DNA from: an uncultured Porphyromonadaceae bacterium
GTDB taxonomy: Bacteria; Bacteroidota; Bacteroidia; Bacteroidales; Muribaculaceae
Assembly: GCA_905212215.1 (NCBI GenBank)
Contig: CAJMDR010000163.1
Span: 1-5,464, forward strand
Reading direction: 5' to 3'
Length of the DNA: 5,464 nt
Shown here piece after piece: positions 1 through 5,464 of this stretch. Both the position numbers and the translations under genes were made by a program. The notes beneath the pieces are model-generated. The model did no database searches, had not been told where the DNA came from, and worked only from the letters and a program-made list of their open reading frames with translations. How positions within the stretch are numbered: the stretch's first letter is position 1; the number at the start of each line of letters is the position of its first letter.

Positions 1-480
1 AAGGTTCTCCTTACGCTTGATAAGACCTTTCAGCATACCACGGCTTACATCGTGGCCCTGCTGCTTCAACACTTCGAGATTTTCTTCAACCGTGTCAAGT
101 TCCGCCTGTAGGATTTGCTGCTGCATCTCCGGCGACTGCGGTATCTTGCCGAACTGGTCGTGCGACATGATAACGCAGTCATAGTCGTTGTTCTTGATTT
201 GATTGAAGAACGCCACGCGGTTGTCAGCCTTGAAACTCTTTTCATCGGCATAAAGAATCCTTGCATTGGGGTAAGCGGTCTGATAGGTCATGGCGATTTC
301 CGCAACATTCGCCTTCATCCCGATAATCATGGGCTTGTGGGCGAGGCCGAGGCGTTTCATTTCATGGGCTGCCATGCACATTATCAGCGTCTTGCCTGTA
401 CCAACCTGATGATCGCATATTCCGCCGCCGTTCTGCAAGAGCATCCACACACAGTCCTTCTGCGACTGATAAATGGAGCT
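1..480 (-). other. SF2/SNF2-like helicase domain, N-terminal part
   Basis: Residues 1144-1303. [17 protein letters not shown] (1146-1162) resembles a Q motif region. [14 protein letters not shown] (1164-1177) is motif I/Walker A with Lys1173 and Thr1174 for ATP binding. [14 protein letters not shown] (1192-1205) is motif Ia. [19 protein letters not shown] fits the strand and loop seen before motif II in this family. It is followed by a long charged helical region (about 1264-1303, EENLEVLKQ.., KRKENL). The DEAH box and motifs III-VI would lie beyond position 1. Expected activity is ATP-driven translocation or remodelling of DNA; the substrate is unknown. Confidence 0.85.
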
Positions 481-3400
481 GATGCCATAACGGTCTCCGA
501 GCATCCTCATGTTCAGATCAGGAAATGTCTGATGGCTTCCGTCATATTGGGGTCTGACGAAACAGTTGAATTTGTCGTTATACAGCTCCACCAGCCGTTC
601 CTTGAACTCCGGCGATTGAGCCTCCAGCCATTCCGAGAAACCGTTGCGGATTTCATCAATCTTGGCATTGGCGAGTTGGATAGCCTCGTTGTCAGGAACT
701 TTTATGTCGTGTCCGTCCTCATCCTTACCGATTGACTTCTTTATGTCAGGTATGGTATTGTGAAGAGCGTGTTTAAGAAGACTCATACCGTCATAGACAC
801 GATAATAACCTTTGACACAGAATTCCTCCCATATCTTCATGTTTTTGTGAGGCGCATCTGCCGAATATTCATCCATCGAGGAAGAATATGCAATCTTTAT
901 TTCGGTTTCATACAGATGACTCATATATGCCGAATAGATACCCGTAGGGATCCATCGCTCACCGAAGTTGAAATCAAGTTCATCGAACTCGATGCGGCGG
1001 GGCCGGGCTTCCTCCAATGCTTTGAGGGAGTCCTGCGACATGGCGATGAACGGTTCTATACCGTCATAGCCGGGGAAGCCTTTGATGCGTTCTTTCTCTT
1101 TATCTATCCATGCCTTGACTGCCTCGGCTTTGGCAACGACATTTCCGGCTATAAAGCGGTCTTTTATCTCGTAATTGCTCACAAGCGGATTGTAGTAGAT
1201 GTGTCCGCCAAGGTTCTCAACCATTGCGTCCTCATCCATATCCACCAATGACGACATATATTCGAGATTTACCTCACCGTATTTGTTGAGCGACGCAGTC
1301 AGTGCCTCCAGCGGAGTATCTACACTTGTAACCTCATCAAGAGAGAATGAAACGGGATGGTCGAAGATGTCAGCCTTGACAAACTGACCGTTCTCGCCAC
1401 GTTCCAATGCCAGTGCGTCACGACCGTTGGCGTCCATCATAATGAACTTGACATTCTGCTTCTCGTTGAGATTGCCATACTTGGCTACAAACTCATCGTA
1501 ATACTGATTGAGGTGTTCGCGCAGATGTTCACTCGGCTCATGTGTCTCCGCCTCGTAGTTGTAGAGCTGCTGGTATGTCTCGGACATGGTGATATACAGC
1601 ATGGCGCGCTTCTCCTGCTCATGTTTTAGACCGAGAGGCGTAAATGTGGCTCCCGTCTTTCTGACATCTGACAGAAATCCGACCATACCGTCGGCAACGA
1701 CCATTGAGCCGTTCTTGTGAAAGAACTGAATATCCTCCGAGAACGGACGCGGCGACATATCGCGCTCGATAGGAATAGCCGTAACTTTCGGCTGGCGGGC
1801 ACGACCACCGGGAATGAAATCGCCTTCGGTCTTTTCGATATAAGTTTCTCCGGGGGCAATTCCGGCGGCTTGTGCCGCTTCCTGAGATTTCTTTTCAAGA
1901 CGCATCTCCTCCATCTGACAATGGGCAATCGACATCATGGCTTCATAAAAGCCATTGATGGGGGGATTGTCGTCCCAGTTCAACGAGCCATAGAACTCAA
2001 GCTCCTTATCAGTCAGTTTACGGAATCCTGATGATTTTATCGGCTTTGCCTTGGTCGCAGGATTGGCAGGCTTCGGTTTTTCCTCCGGCTTTTGCATCTG
2101 CTGACGACGGTTGTTCTTCTGCTGCACAGGCTCCAGTTCTCCGAAAAGATTGTAGGCAAACAGACGCGGATCGGGATTGTCCGAATAATCGGGTCTGCCG
2201 TCGGTTTCAATCTCCTTAGTTTCTACCTTTGGAGCTTCAACTGGTTTGGGTTCAGGTTTGGATTCCAATCTTGGCTCTGGCTTCGGAGGTGGGTTAGGCG
2301 TAACCGTCTCGACCACCTTTTGCCGGGGTGTCTTTTTCAGCTTCGGATCCTCCAACTGCTCGCAGATAGCCACACGCTTGCCTGCCCGCACAAGTTTGGG
2401 CAAATAAGTGTCGAGGGCATGGTGTGGAAATCCCGCCAATTCAATGCGGTTGTCAAGGCCGTTCATTCGGCGCGTCAGAGTAATCCCAAGTATTTCAGAC
2501 GCTTCGATTGCATCCTTGCCGAAAATCTCATAGAAGTCACCCACGCGGAACATAAGAATGGCGTCGGGATGCTTCTTTTTCATCTCCTGATACTGTTTGA
2601 GCAAAGGCTCGTTCCTCTGCTCAATCTTCTCGGCAAGCGGTTTCTGTTTCGGTGATTCCGGCTTTACTTCGGGTGTCGGCTTTACCTCCGGCTTCAGTGT
2701 CGGAGTCGGCTTGACAGGGTTTAGCGTGGGAGGTTTTATACCATTGGAATTATACAGCTCCAGATTCAGACGCAAGCGCAGCGACTCATCGAGAGCCTTG
2801 CGTAAATCCTCGGCAATGCCATTAACACCTCCTGTATGTGTATAGACAATCGCCGGTTTTCCATACTGATCGGTGCCAATCTTTGCATCATCGCTTATCA
2901 CATTCTGCGGAAAAGCCTGAAAGAATTTATTGCCCGGTACCTTCGTACCACGGTCAACAACCGACTGAATGAAAAACTCTTCATCAGCCGACAACGCCTT
3001 CTTTCCGGTATGCTTCTGGAAAATAATCAGGTCAGAGCCTACATCAGTTCCGGCGTTATCGGAGAAAGTGTTGTTGGGCAGACGTAGAGCCGCCACAAGG
3101 TCGGCACGCTTCACCAGCTCCATGCGTATGAAAGGAGAAGCAGCGTTCATAACACCCTGCGATGCAATGAAGGCAACCAATCCCCCCTCGCGCACTTGGT
3201 CGAGTGCTTTGAGAAAGAAATAGTTATGTGTAGCCTTTGTCGATTGACGGTAGGCAATCTCCTTGCTCACGGCATACGCGGGGTCCGCAATCGCGAAATC
3301 ACCGAAAGGAACATTAGAGGCAGCGACATCGAAATAGCCGTTGAAGTCGCTTTCTATCTTTTCAAAGCCCTCTATGCGAGTAAGAATAGACGGATGCAGC

Positions 3401-3909
3401 GCTGAAAGGATTTTACCCGTGAGCAAATCCTTCTCATACGCCAATACCTCAGCACCGGGGTATCTGTCATTGCGCAGGAACGAGTCAATAAATGCTCCCT
3501 GACCGGCAGACGGTTCCAGAAAACTTTTTATCTCGACTCCGGAATATTTCAGCGAGTCAGAGATGGCATCAACAATGCGGTTGTCGGTATAAAACGCAGT
3601 CAGCACCGAGGCTTTCAGTGAATCCATGTACCCGGCAAACTCCTTATCGTTGTGGCTGTAATCATGGATAAGCCGACGCAGTTCCACCGTAGGCGCGAAC
3701 AGTTCAATCTCCGATTTGCTCCACTTGGCTGCATCAGCCAGTTCATTGGCATCGTTGAGAATGCACTTCAACCCGCCGAAGCCGGCGTATTTCCGCAGTA
3801 TCTCGCGCTCCTCGGCAGTCTGCGCCGAGCGTCCGGCAACGCCGAGGCGAAAGGCAAGCCTTATCGCCTCGATGTTGTCGCGCATAACTTTAAGTCTGTT
3901 ATATGCCAT
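1..3909 (-). CDS. N6-adenine DNA methylase / MutS-I / SF2 helicase fusion protein (3' end outside window)
   Basis: One frame is open from the ATG at 3909 to the window edge: 1303 codons without a stop. Relatives in Bacteroidales conjugative elements are, as I recall, about 1900-2100 residues, so the helicase C-terminal part is cut off. Domain order: N6-methylase (about 1-391) with YAGFGG (41-46), SAM motif [10 protein letters not shown] (132-140) and motif IV NVPF (199-202); Lys/Pro linker (392-424); MutS domain I-like module (435-539); second Pro-rich linker (540-623); conserved middle region (about 744-925); a pre-helicase segment with [18 protein letters not shown] and YDGSH (about 1074-1126); then a helicase with Walker A GTGKT (1170-1174). 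It probably modifies or remodels element DNA in the cytoplasm during transfer or establishment, for example as anti-restriction, but the exact function is not established. No signal peptide or membrane segment is seen. It is the third gene of the operon, one base after DUF1896. Confidence 0.9.
1135..1680 (-). other. Conserved middle region of methylase/helicase proteins
   Basis: Residues about 744-925 match the region found between methylase and helicase in large proteins of phages and conjugative elements. Landmarks are the helical [16 protein letters not shown] (824-839), [44 protein letters not shown] (860-879), VNLEYMSSL and LGGHIYYNP (900-908). No catalytic motif is visible. It probably serves as a structural or DNA-contacting connector; its biochemical role is unknown to me. 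Confidence 0.65.
2041..2292 (-). other. Second Pro/Lys/Glu-rich linker with a hydrophobic island
   Basis: Residues 540-623 begin with [19 protein letters not shown] and end with [17 protein letters not shown], both expected to be disordered. Between them lies a non-repetitive island, [20 protein letters not shown] (574-593), with aromatic and hydrophobic residues typical of a short binding motif. The two linkers bracket the MutS-like module and its neighbours, giving the protein a beads-on-a-string layout. Confidence 0.65.
2293..2607 (-). other. MutS domain I-like (mismatch-recognition) module
   Basis: Residues 435-539 follow MutS domain I from end to end. [20 protein letters not shown] matches the MutS start (QQYL..K..HP..LL.Y); RVGDFYEIF (455-463) matches E. 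coli Mut[35 protein letters not shown] and [10 protein letters not shown] match the following blocks; and [10 protein letters not shown] (529-538) matches the MutS boundary to domain II (ERKVVRIVTP). Phe459-Tyr-Glu461 is the Phe-x-Glu motif that, in MutS, stacks on and hydrogen-bonds to a mispaired base. The other MutS domains (connector, lever, clamp, ATPase) are absent. The module probably recognises distorted or mispaired DNA for the fused enzyme. Confidence 0.9.
2638..2736 (-). repeat. Lys/Pro-rich degenerate repeat linker before the MutS-like domain
   Basis: Residues 392-424 are built from repeated K-P-x units, such as [14 protein letters not shown] and EVKPE, encoded by near-repeats of GTCGGCTT/CCGGCTT on the plus strand. 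Such sequence is expected to be extended and disordered. It separates the methylase from the MutS-like domain. Being repetitive, it may vary in length between related elements by slippage. Confidence 0.75.
2737..3909 (-). other. N6-adenine methylase domain of the fusion protein
   Basis: Residues 1-391. Motif [10 protein letters not shown] (132-140) is the SAM-binding loop. The catalytic motif IV reads SNVPFGDF (198-205), with Asn199-Val-Pro-Phe202 in place of the usual N/D-PP-Y/F/W; this variant is typical of methylase-like domains in conjugative elements. Motif I precedes motif IV, as in gamma-class and type I-like N6-adenine enzymes. Other family landmarks are FYTDNRIV (106-113), [20 protein letters not shown] (228-247), RLPNNTF (276-282) and [14 protein letters not shown] (286-299). 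A methyl-transfer role is inferred from family; activity has not been shown. Confidence 0.85.
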
Positions 3910-3913
3910 ATCA
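3907..3913 (-). promoter_or_regulatory. Stop-start junction TGA-T-ATG between DUF1896 and the methylase gene
   Basis: The DUF1896 stop (3913-3911) is followed by one base and then the ATG of the large gene (3909-3907). No purine-rich ribosome binding site precedes it. In the frame of the large gene, a TAA occurs 12 codons upstream (3945-3943) with no ATG, GTG or TTG between, so this ATG is the earliest credible start. The arrangement points to re-initiation by the same ribosome and fixed stoichiometry of the two products. Confidence 0.7.
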
Positions 3914-4327
3914 GTGGAAATAGGTGGTGAAATAGTCGTCGATTACACCGAGAAGTTCGGTCTTGAACGCCTCGTACTCCGCCGAATGCACGGGGTACTT
4001 GTCGGGAGAATACCGCTCACGGTATTCTTCGAGCACATCATCCATATCAGAAATGAAGAAGTCATAGCCTTCTTCCGGACTGTAGTCGGATAGGATTTCC
4101 CGGACGAGGTCGTCAAAGGAATCACCCTCATAGCCCTGCATGAGTGCTATCATAGCCAGTTCCTCGGCGGTGGACACCTCCACCCCTCCGCGTCGTGCCT
4201 CCCAGAACACCTCGTATGCCTGGTCTGCACGGGCGTTGATGAAGCTGAGATCTTCGGCCTCCGGATAGTTGTTGCGAGAGAGGAAGTTTGACAGGTAGCG
4301 GATGTATGCGTCGAGAGTATTTTTCAT
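3911..4327 (-). CDS. DUF1896-type small acidic protein of Bacteroidales mobile elements
   Basis: This is a complete 138-residue protein. The start is fixed: the topoisomerase TAA lies in the same frame only five codons upstream, and the ATG at 4327 is the first one after it. I recognise the DUF1896 pattern from its N-terminal YLSNFL helix, the [20 protein letters not shown] block (residues 29-48), the following A.ELA...L..G segment and the late Y..E...[12 protein letters not shown] region. Function is unknown. It is very acidic, with 31 Asp/Glu against 11 Lys/Arg by my count, and has no signal peptide, membrane segment or Cys motif, so a soluble cytoplasmic protein is expected. DUF1896 genes commonly sit beside large methylase/helicase genes in Bacteroidales conjugative elements (family knowledge). 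Here it ends one base before that gene, so the two are probably translationally coupled. It might be an accessory partner of the large protein or a DNA mimic, but nothing proves either. Confidence 0.85.
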
Positions 4328-4339: not shown

Positions 4340-5464
4340 TTAGGCGTTTTCGGATTTGTTTTTGCTGACCACCTGAGTATTCCCGGCGGCATTGATTATC
4401 ACTTGGGCTTTGAAGGTCTTGCCGCTACGGGCACGGAAACCTCCGATGAACGGTGTCGAGCCGGTGTTGATGAGCGAGGCGAGTTCATCATGGGTGAGCG
4501 TCACGCCGTAGAACTGGCGAAACACGTAGTGGCCGCATTCGGGGTTGTCGCACATTGCAACTCTGCCGAAGGTTTTCATTACCCCCTCTGAGCAGTGAGG
4601 ACACGGGATGTCTTCTTCCATTCTGGGAAAGAGTTTTGCCGATGCAAGGATTCCTGCCGTCACGTCGCGGGTGAACTGTTTGAGTTGATTGTCGTATGCA
4701 CTCGTTGAGAGTACGTCACGGGCGACTTCTTTCATCAGAGTGTCCACCTTGACCACCTCGCCGATGTCGGCAATCTTCATATCCTTGATGATGCCGTAAA
4801 GCAGACGCCCCTTTGTAGTGAGCGAAAGGTGCCCCCATACGTCGCGCTCGATGAGACCGCTTGATTCCAGATGGACGATGTCTTTAGCGATTCCGGCAGA
4901 ATAAACCGTGCCACGGATTGCGAGAAGATCCTCAATGAGAGTAGCGTCCGTGTAGTCTTCGGGCATCGGAGACTTTGCGATACACGAGCCTGTTGAGAAG
5001 ATGTCGGTCTCTTCGCCTTCAGCGAGTACAGGCATCGGCTGTGTTTTCATCAGCGTGTCGGGGAAGAGCGAGTGCCAGGCTTTGGTCTTGTAGGTTTCTC
5101 CTTTCCATTCGTAGCGGACTCCTTCGCACTCAGTGATGACACGGGTGCGGATAACCACTGCGTCTTTGCTGAATGCCTGATACATTCTCTTGACGATGAG
5201 ATGATAGATACGGCTCATGTCATCATCGAGAACCAAAGGGGGCACGCCGGTTGCCACAATACCGTGGGTACCGTACTTGCTTTTATCGACAGCACGACCG
5301 GGAGCAAACCCGATGTTTGCCATTGCCACGGATGTGTAGTTGCTGTATGAGAGCATCTTTTCCAGTACCTTGCGGCACTCCTGATACTTACGCTGGGGAA
5401 CGGTGCTACCGGCGGCGACAGGGAAAGAGACGAGTTTTCTACCGAAGAGACGGTGTGCCGCCTC
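4340..5464 (-). CDS. Type IA topoisomerase III-like protein, C-terminal part (5' end outside window)
   Basis: The frame is open from the window edge to a TAA at 4342-4340, giving 374 visible residues; family members are usually about 650-700 residues, so roughly the N-terminal half, including the TOPRIM domain, is missing from view. The ATG at 5356 is internal, because coding with clear family similarity continues upstream of it. Visible parts: an active-site-like segment (residues 6-23), a segment resembling the His motif (THGIVATG, 66-73), a YTDATLIEDL segment like topoisomerase III YTEATL, a helical region ending TTKGRLLYGIIKDMKIAD, a four-Cys zinc finger (288-310) and a C-terminal GF..RSGK.FKA repeat-like segment. 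Active family members relax DNA and pass single strands through a 5'-phosphotyrosine link; homologues in Bacteroides conjugative transposons include TopB/Exc-type proteins. The catalytic Tyr, the His motif and the GxGTxATR motif all look degenerate here, so the protein may be a DNA-binding pseudo-enzyme. It is the first visible gene of a three-gene operon. The family is clear; activity is doubtful. Confidence 0.85.
   Translation of the reverse strand, partial: EAAHRLFGRKLVSFPVAAGSTVPQRKYQECRKVLEKMLSYSNYTSVAMANIGFAPGRAVDKSKYGTHGIVATGVPPLVLDDDMSRIYHLIVKRMYQAFSKDAVVIRTRVITECEGVRYEWKGETYKTKAWHSLFPDTLMKTQPMPVLAEGEETDIFSTGSCIAKSPMPEDYTDATLIEDLLAIRGTVYSAGIAKDIVHLESSGLIERDVWGHLSLTTKGRLLYGIIKDMKIADIGEVVKVDTLMKEVARDVLSTSAYDNQLKQFTRDVTAGILASAKLFPRMEEDIPCPHCSEGVMKTFGRVAMCDNPECGHYVFRQFYGVTLTHDELASLINTGSTPFIGGFRARSGKTFKAQVIINAAGNTQVVSKNKSENA
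4535..4603 (-). other. Four-cysteine zinc finger of the topoisomerase-like protein
   Basis: Visible residues 288-310 have the pattern C-x2-C-x13-C-x4-C (CPHC, then CDNPEC). This is the C-terminal zinc-ribbon type found in many type IA topoisomerases, where it binds single-stranded DNA. All four Cys are intact even though the catalytic motifs are degenerate, which suggests that DNA binding has been kept. It is followed by the family's C-terminal repeat-like segment with GGFRARSGKTFKA. Confidence 0.8.
5396..5449 (-). other. Degenerate topoisomerase active-site segment (Tyr to Phe)
   Basis: Visible residues 6-23 read LFGRKLVSFPVAAGSTVP. They align without gaps to the typical family segment LYEKKLISYPRTGSRYIP (recalled consensus). 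The catalytic Tyr becomes Phe14 (codon TTC, 5425-5423), one base from TAC, and the conserved Arg two residues later becomes Val. The flanking Lys-Leu, Ser, Pro and final Pro match, which fixes the alignment. The segment is close to the window edge, so it cannot be excluded that a functional Tyr lies elsewhere. Confidence 0.65.

Follow-up and report, generated by a model that had tools for sequence, protein, structure and literature searches.

Among the closest described systems is that of the CTnDOT element, whose Exc protein (Sutanto et al. 2002, Mol Microbiol 46:1239) is reported to be a relative of topoisomerase III encoded in the excision operon after the xis genes and orf3. Exc is said to have an intact active site and to relax DNA in vitro; a mutant of its catalytic tyrosine reportedly still supports excision. 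A topoisomerase III-like protein of a family designated PT1 here is encoded in a stretch of DNA from an uncultured Porphyromonadaceae bacterium (Muribaculaceae; assembly GCA_905212215.1, contig CAJMDR010000163.1), which was analysed over its whole length of 5,464 nucleotides and is called the window below. The window carries the C-terminal 374 residues of this protein (4340..5464, minus strand), the start of the open reading frame (ORF) lying beyond the window end. PT1 is very probably a conserved member of the topoisomerase family that is catalytically dead. Compared with bacterial TopB, a type IA enzyme, the window protein has Phe in place of Tyr328 and Val in place of Arg330, and a full-length relative has Gln for Glu7 and Asn for Lys8. 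In contrast to the active site of CTnDOT Exc, reported as intact, that of PT1 appears to have been lost by descent.

Mobile elements of Bacteroidales also carry intact topoisomerases (e.g. L048:8248-10338), which serve as another point of comparison. They occupy the same operon slot as the dead families and belong to a neighbouring clade. All 21 aligned members keep Glu7, Lys8, Asp103, Tyr328, Arg330 and both histidines. One full-length PT1 protein scores 167 against the NCBIfam topB cut-off of 515.75, and even the intact L048 enzyme, at 515.3, falls just short of it.

The PT1 active site

The topoisomerase identity of the 374-residue fragment is not due to chance, since Pfam finds both Topoisom_bac (PF01131; E 6.4e-20, 72 bits, cut-off 35.1) and Toprim_Crpt (PF13342; E 2.5e-10, beginning at residue 310 of the fragment). 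The window protein has the domain sequence and, with an AlphaFold model predicting a topoisomerase III fold, the predicted fold of a type IA enzyme, and lacks both the catalytic tyrosine of the SYPRT motif and the arginine two residues further on. Translation of the minus strand at 5449-5396 gives precisely LFGRKLVSFPVAAGSTVP, the segment on which the preliminary description was based. As proposed there, sequence and alignment place a Phe codon (5423..5425) at the nucleophile, TopB Tyr328, and a Val codon (5417..5419) at the conserved Arg330. The alignment was said to be gap-free over 18 positions; this holds against element-type relatives but not against TopB, in which an additional residue ahead of the motif makes one gap necessary. 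Alignment and family counts further identify Thr-His (5264..5269) in place of His381-His382.

The window itself shows the C-terminal sites only, and the state of the Toprim Glu and Lys positions is taken from L001, a locus in a metagenome-assembled genome named Muribaculaceae bacterium and the single relative obtained from the scan of named genome contigs (95% amino acid identity over 374 residues). Its ORF of 666 residues (L001:7125-9125; residue numbers follow E. coli TopB, NP_416277, locus L007) has Gln-Asn at Glu7-Lys8, the Toprim Glu and the topoisomerase III Lys of active TopB, as does P0001 in the alignment. The Toprim stretch reads VEPTQEGE, Arg197 of the GRVQT motif is retained, and the C-terminal sites are Phe, Val and Thr-His as in the window. 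A better SYPRT-like motif with tyrosine further upstream, which the preliminary description named as a possible refutation, is absent: L001 has no YPR, and its sole other [ST][YF]P sequence, SFPHL at residue 61 in the Toprim part, likewise lacks tyrosine. A second motif of this kind was thus rejected. A sequencing error, the other possibility raised at that stage, is unlikely, as Phe occurs also in the separate L001 assembly and in 24 of 62 family members.

A protein search returned 286 matches. Among the best 120, which were listed, P0001-P0064 carry the PT1 pattern and the other 56, 29-32% identical, look intact. With five shorter pieces removed and three loci added, the PT1 set contains 62 proteins, which form one clade (support 1.0, FastTree). 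Glu7 is kept in one of them (Gln in 59), Lys8 in none, Asp103 in 21 and Arg197 in all; Tyr328 is kept in 38 (Phe in the remaining 24), Arg330 and His381 in none, and His382 in 47. All eight residues are retained in 93/93 other topoisomerases used for comparison. TopB Asp105 was dropped as a marker, being missing also from 92 of the 93 intact enzymes. By parsimony, Tyr and Phe have switched at least seven times within PT1, and the site appears to accept an aromatic ring with or without its hydroxyl. The survey of homologues therefore supports Phe as a real variant but not as the defining change, since the two aromatic residues interchange within the family and it is Arg and Glu that are missing almost everywhere. 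The Phe of the window is best read as one outcome of a loss covering most of the PT1 active site.

The passages of PMC6101483 dealing with these residues describe the active-site arginine as strictly conserved and propose it as a stabiliser of the transition state. They also report that changing the Toprim Glu of Mycobacterium tuberculosis topoisomerase I to Gln or Ala abolishes relaxation and cleavage and leaves oligonucleotide binding unaffected, with the same loss of activity for the M. smegmatis equivalent and for E. coli E9Q; those authors were unable to confirm the cleavage that had previously been reported for E. coli E9Q. The loss of Lys8 weighs less, because the corresponding residue of bacterial topoisomerase I is Ser, according to the same passages. 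The initial suggestion that Phe alone would make strand cleavage impossible is thus supported in its outcome, a non-cleaving relative, but not in its cause: Phe is the minor change, and the decisive losses would be those of Arg330 and Toprim Glu7, which are found also in members that keep Tyr.

PT1 proteins also share an invariant Toprim stretch, TPRG..YW.R..SFP (P0001 residues 48-71, TPRGxASYWFRxxSFPxLP), that is missing from intact enzymes and lies in a low-confidence part of the model.

Integrity of the gene and its operon

The length of PT1 is 658-672 residues in 59 of the 64 listed proteins, the remaining five being shorter pieces. By the Nei-Gojobori method, the ratio of nonsynonymous to synonymous divergence (dN/dS) between the window and L001 topoisomerase-like genes is 0.067 (0.0212/0.317, 374 codons), and that between two further PT1 loci, L010 and L011, is 0.074 (0.0128/0.1735, 668 codons); the remaining PT1 pairs are saturated. 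For the operon neighbours in the window and L001, the values are 0.089 (DUF1896) and 0.04 and 0.052 (helicase, dS about 1.1). The topoisomerase-like gene is maintained about as firmly as its operon; the earlier view that it is not simply decaying is borne out by an intact gene under purifying selection. Silent-site divergence is uneven along this operon (L001:9556-16005 for the helicase gene), about 1.1 in the helicase gene, 0.32 in the topoisomerase-like gene and 0.38 in DUF1896. The operon looks as if it were a mosaic, because the helicase value far exceeds those of the two adjoining genes.

In the window, the topoisomerase-like gene is followed on the minus strand by a DUF1896 gene of 138 codons (3911..4327; PF08989, 69.3 bits, cut-off 25) and by the part of a gene encoding the N-terminal 1303 residues of a large methylase/helicase-like protein (1..3909), which runs off the window. 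The intergenic gaps are just 12 bases and 1 base, and the three genes therefore probably form one operon. The DUF1896 neighbour is present also in L001 and L044-L046. A zinc-finger-like C-terminal segment with four cysteines was recognised by eye in the topoisomerase-like protein (4535..4603, minus strand); these cysteines (C580, C583, C597, C602) are invariant in a 29-member alignment.

The only Pfam match above its cut-off in the window part of the large protein is MutS_I, a mismatch-binding domain family, which occurs as one stretch in the window (2296-2607, minus strand) and as two in L001:9556-16005. The L001 counterpart has 2149 residues, with Helicase_C above cut-off. Elsewhere in L001 (507-4913), a MobC-type coupling protein gene lies in two pieces around an ORF of 550 residues (2051-3703) resembling a group II intron reverse transcriptase. 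In another PT1 element, the helicase gene is in two pieces with three tyrosine-recombinase-like genes between them (L046:1496-4693), and part of a similar set is found in the PT2 locus L074 near the helicase gene.

Sister families in a shared operon slot

Two further families, PT2 and PT3, show other forms of active-site loss. PT2 has Ser at the Tyr position in 111/111 proteins, with Glu7 in 105 and Asp103 in 96. The serine is invariant (P0121-P0228, L074, L075, L078) though three loci are just 28-29% identical to L074. Among 34 aligned PT2 rows, Arg330 is kept in 4, Glu7 in 28 and Lys8 in 9; Arg330 is lost from 108/108 database proteins, and the four locus rows that have it have lost Glu7. 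One PT2 branch (L151, L153, L154) keeps the Arg (ISSPRTS), the Tyr being replaced by Ser and the Toprim Glu by His; in its loci, DUF1896 and helicase are found on the opposite side and in reverse orientation. PT3 is a half-length form of 355-388 residues, in which Glu7 is lost from 21/21 proteins and Tyr is kept in 19. Tyr328 and Arg330 are kept together in none of the 72 aligned dead rows. None of the residues Glu7, Lys8, Tyr328 and Arg330 is missing from PT1, PT2 and PT3 alike, and the losses therefore differ by lineage.

In a tree computed without the catalytic columns, PT1, PT2 and PT3 are each monophyletic (support 100) and jointly form one clade (99/94), placed beside the intact element-type enzymes (80/77); the latter position was weakly supported for PT1 in an earlier FastTree analysis. 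A single shared origin of the three families is favoured by these sequences without being secure, and is kept tentative because of long branches. Approximately unbiased tests of placing PT1, PT2 or PT3 with the intact enzymes (p = 0.045, 0.083 and 0.008, respectively) exclude these alternatives only in part. Two loci (L130, G082:C203; L131, G144:C21) match PT3 weakly, over its N-terminal part alone (117 and 101 bits), and perhaps represent a further family.

The families share an operon slot, as judged from gene labels assigned by best BLAST match to reference genes; Pfam confirmed the labels in 3/3 DUF4099/DUF3945 and 4/4 integrase genes tested. The order in intact loci is a helix-turn-helix (HTH) gene, the DUF3945 gene, topoisomerase, DUF1896 and helicase. 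PT1 loci have the same order with PT1 as the topoisomerase, preceded by MobB and MobC; PT3 loci have it with PT3 and with several HTH genes, often preceded by an integrase. In PT2 loci, HTH, the DUF3945 gene and PT2 are followed by HTH genes and an integrase, mostly on the opposite strand. A DUF4099/DUF3945 gene lies upstream in 4/4 intact, 3/3 PT1, 23/24 PT2 and 21/21 PT3 loci, and an HTH-like gene in 2/4, 3/3, 21/24 and 21/21, respectively. DUF1896 is found downstream in 3/4, 3/3, 0/24 and 20/21, and an integrase within the stretch in 1/4, 1/3, 22/24 and 14/21.

In genome G174, the intact slot adjoins tet(Q) (1519.9 bits, cut-off 1425), histidine-kinase-like and response-regulator-like genes, MobC and MobB, and this element is taken as CTnDOT/ERL-type. 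The order in both the PT1 loci and the tet(Q) element is HTH-like gene, DUF3945 gene, topoisomerase, the small genes being HTH-like by label; Exc of CTnDOT reportedly follows xis genes and orf3. The likeness to Exc suggested in the preliminary description may extend to the slot, the link consisting of gene order beside tet(Q) in an element with MobB and MobC. In genome G131, PT1 is accompanied by TraG, TraJ, TraM, TraN, MobC and MobB, all above their cut-offs.

Among 397 Muribaculaceae genomes, PT1 is present in at least 4 (residues checked), PT2 in at least 22, PT3 in at least 21 and any of the three, by score, in at least 37; these are lower bounds, 3 or 4 candidates having been scored per genome. 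PT2 calls rely on scores of at least 141 bits, other matches reaching at most 129, and one of the 22 is partial; two of the 21 PT3 calls are weak and partial. In 393 genomes drawn from the order, PT1 was found only in G001 and PT2 only in G014, both already in the family sample; the other loci read in the order-wide PT1 sample are intact. A scan of viral contigs gave no match. Genome G075 holds five dead copies (one PT1, two PT2, two PT3) plus three strong PF01131 matches. Nearly identical stretches recur in different species: those with PT3 (17.3-17.5 kb) share 99.94-99.98% identity among G075, G091 and G118, and one of 12.6 kb with PT2 shares 99.8% between G014 and G093. This suggests that elements carrying a dead copy move, the alternative being contamination between assemblies.

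Possible roles of a probably non-cutting topoisomerase relative

It is proposed that PT1 is a structural, DNA-holding factor in the excision module of its element, a reading to which we give a probability of about 0.5. A dead protein of this type is a type IA topoisomerase relative standing outside the active enzymes and may work like Exc. It would bind DNA and partners in an excision complex without cutting, and would act alongside the integrase and HTH proteins, as is reported for Exc. We infer the absence of cleavage, the retention of DNA binding and the role in excision. Excision is favoured over transfer by the PT2 loci, where the DUF1896-helicase pair is missing and an integrase is nearby.

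Several observations weigh against an excision factor. The proposed orthology with Exc draws on gene order, and the N-terminal half of the window's protein is read from L001, outside the window. Retained DNA binding is not assured, since only 41 of the 110 positions that never vary among intact enzymes are kept in PT1, and 44 have been lost. Among 10 small genes labelled HTH, 4 reach the HTH_17 cut-off, 5 miss it and one (L074) lacks any HTH match. The PT1 slot itself has no adjoining integrase: in G001 none was found by reference genes in 100 kb of contig, in G056 an integrase (68.7 bits) lies about 2.5 kb past the helicase gene, and in G131, the source of the single integrase count for PT1, a trio of recombinase genes sits within the helicase gene and a tyrosine recombinase is encoded close to the tra genes. 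PT1 loci, which lie between Mob genes and the helicase, argue less clearly for excision, and the constancy of helicase and DUF1896 beside PT1 and PT3 is compatible also with transfer or replication.

The dead topoisomerase could instead hold single-stranded DNA for the helicase or relaxase of the element in transfer or replication. The DUF1896 gene and large helicase directly downstream of PT1 (3/3 loci) and PT3 (20/21), the upstream MobB/MobC of PT1 elements and the PT1 slot without an adjoining integrase are consistent with such a role; we consider it less likely than excision, however, as none of the 24 PT2 loci has the downstream pair, while most still have the DUF3945 gene (23), the upstream HTH-like gene (21) and the integrase (22). 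HTH-like genes upstream in 47 of the 52 loci counted would also suit a regulator of the mob and tra genes that binds DNA through the topoisomerase fold, a role that seems distinctly less probable still. That the proteins remain active by means of other residues, such as the PT2 serine, is very improbable. PT2 does combine this invariant serine with Glu7 and Asp103 in most proteins, and four locus rows retain Arg330, but those four lack Glu7. PT1 and PT3 have no such serine, Glu7 is lost from 61/62 PT1 and 21/21 PT3 proteins, and Arg330 from 62/62 PT1 and all 108 database PT2 proteins. We know of no case of type IA cleavage without both Tyr and Arg. Least probable of all is a decaying pseudogene: many catalytic residues are indeed lost, but this explanation was rejected on the length and dN/dS of PT1, and two more families occupy the same slot.

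A wider, more tentative reading concerns all three families. It is possible that mobile elements of Muribaculaceae converted the type IA fold into a non-enzymatic part of integrase excision, a DNA cutter becoming a recombination scaffold, as suggested by a clade of three families (Tyr or Phe without Arg; Ser for Tyr; half-length) in the same slot. No report of dead or pseudo-topoisomerases, or of topoisomerases of Muribaculaceae conjugative elements, was found by text searches of open-licence papers. Among the entries that databases label 'type IA DNA topoisomerase' or 'DNA topoisomerase' (P0006, P0027, P0126) are proteins that, from their residues, very likely cannot cut DNA. To our knowledge, the reason why CTnDOT needs a topoisomerase-like Exc with dispensable activity has been open since 2002. 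A natural dead clade supplies ready-made test proteins, and the persistence of such a gene in its slot, under strong selection and with the active site gone, would mean that the element needs the fold itself.
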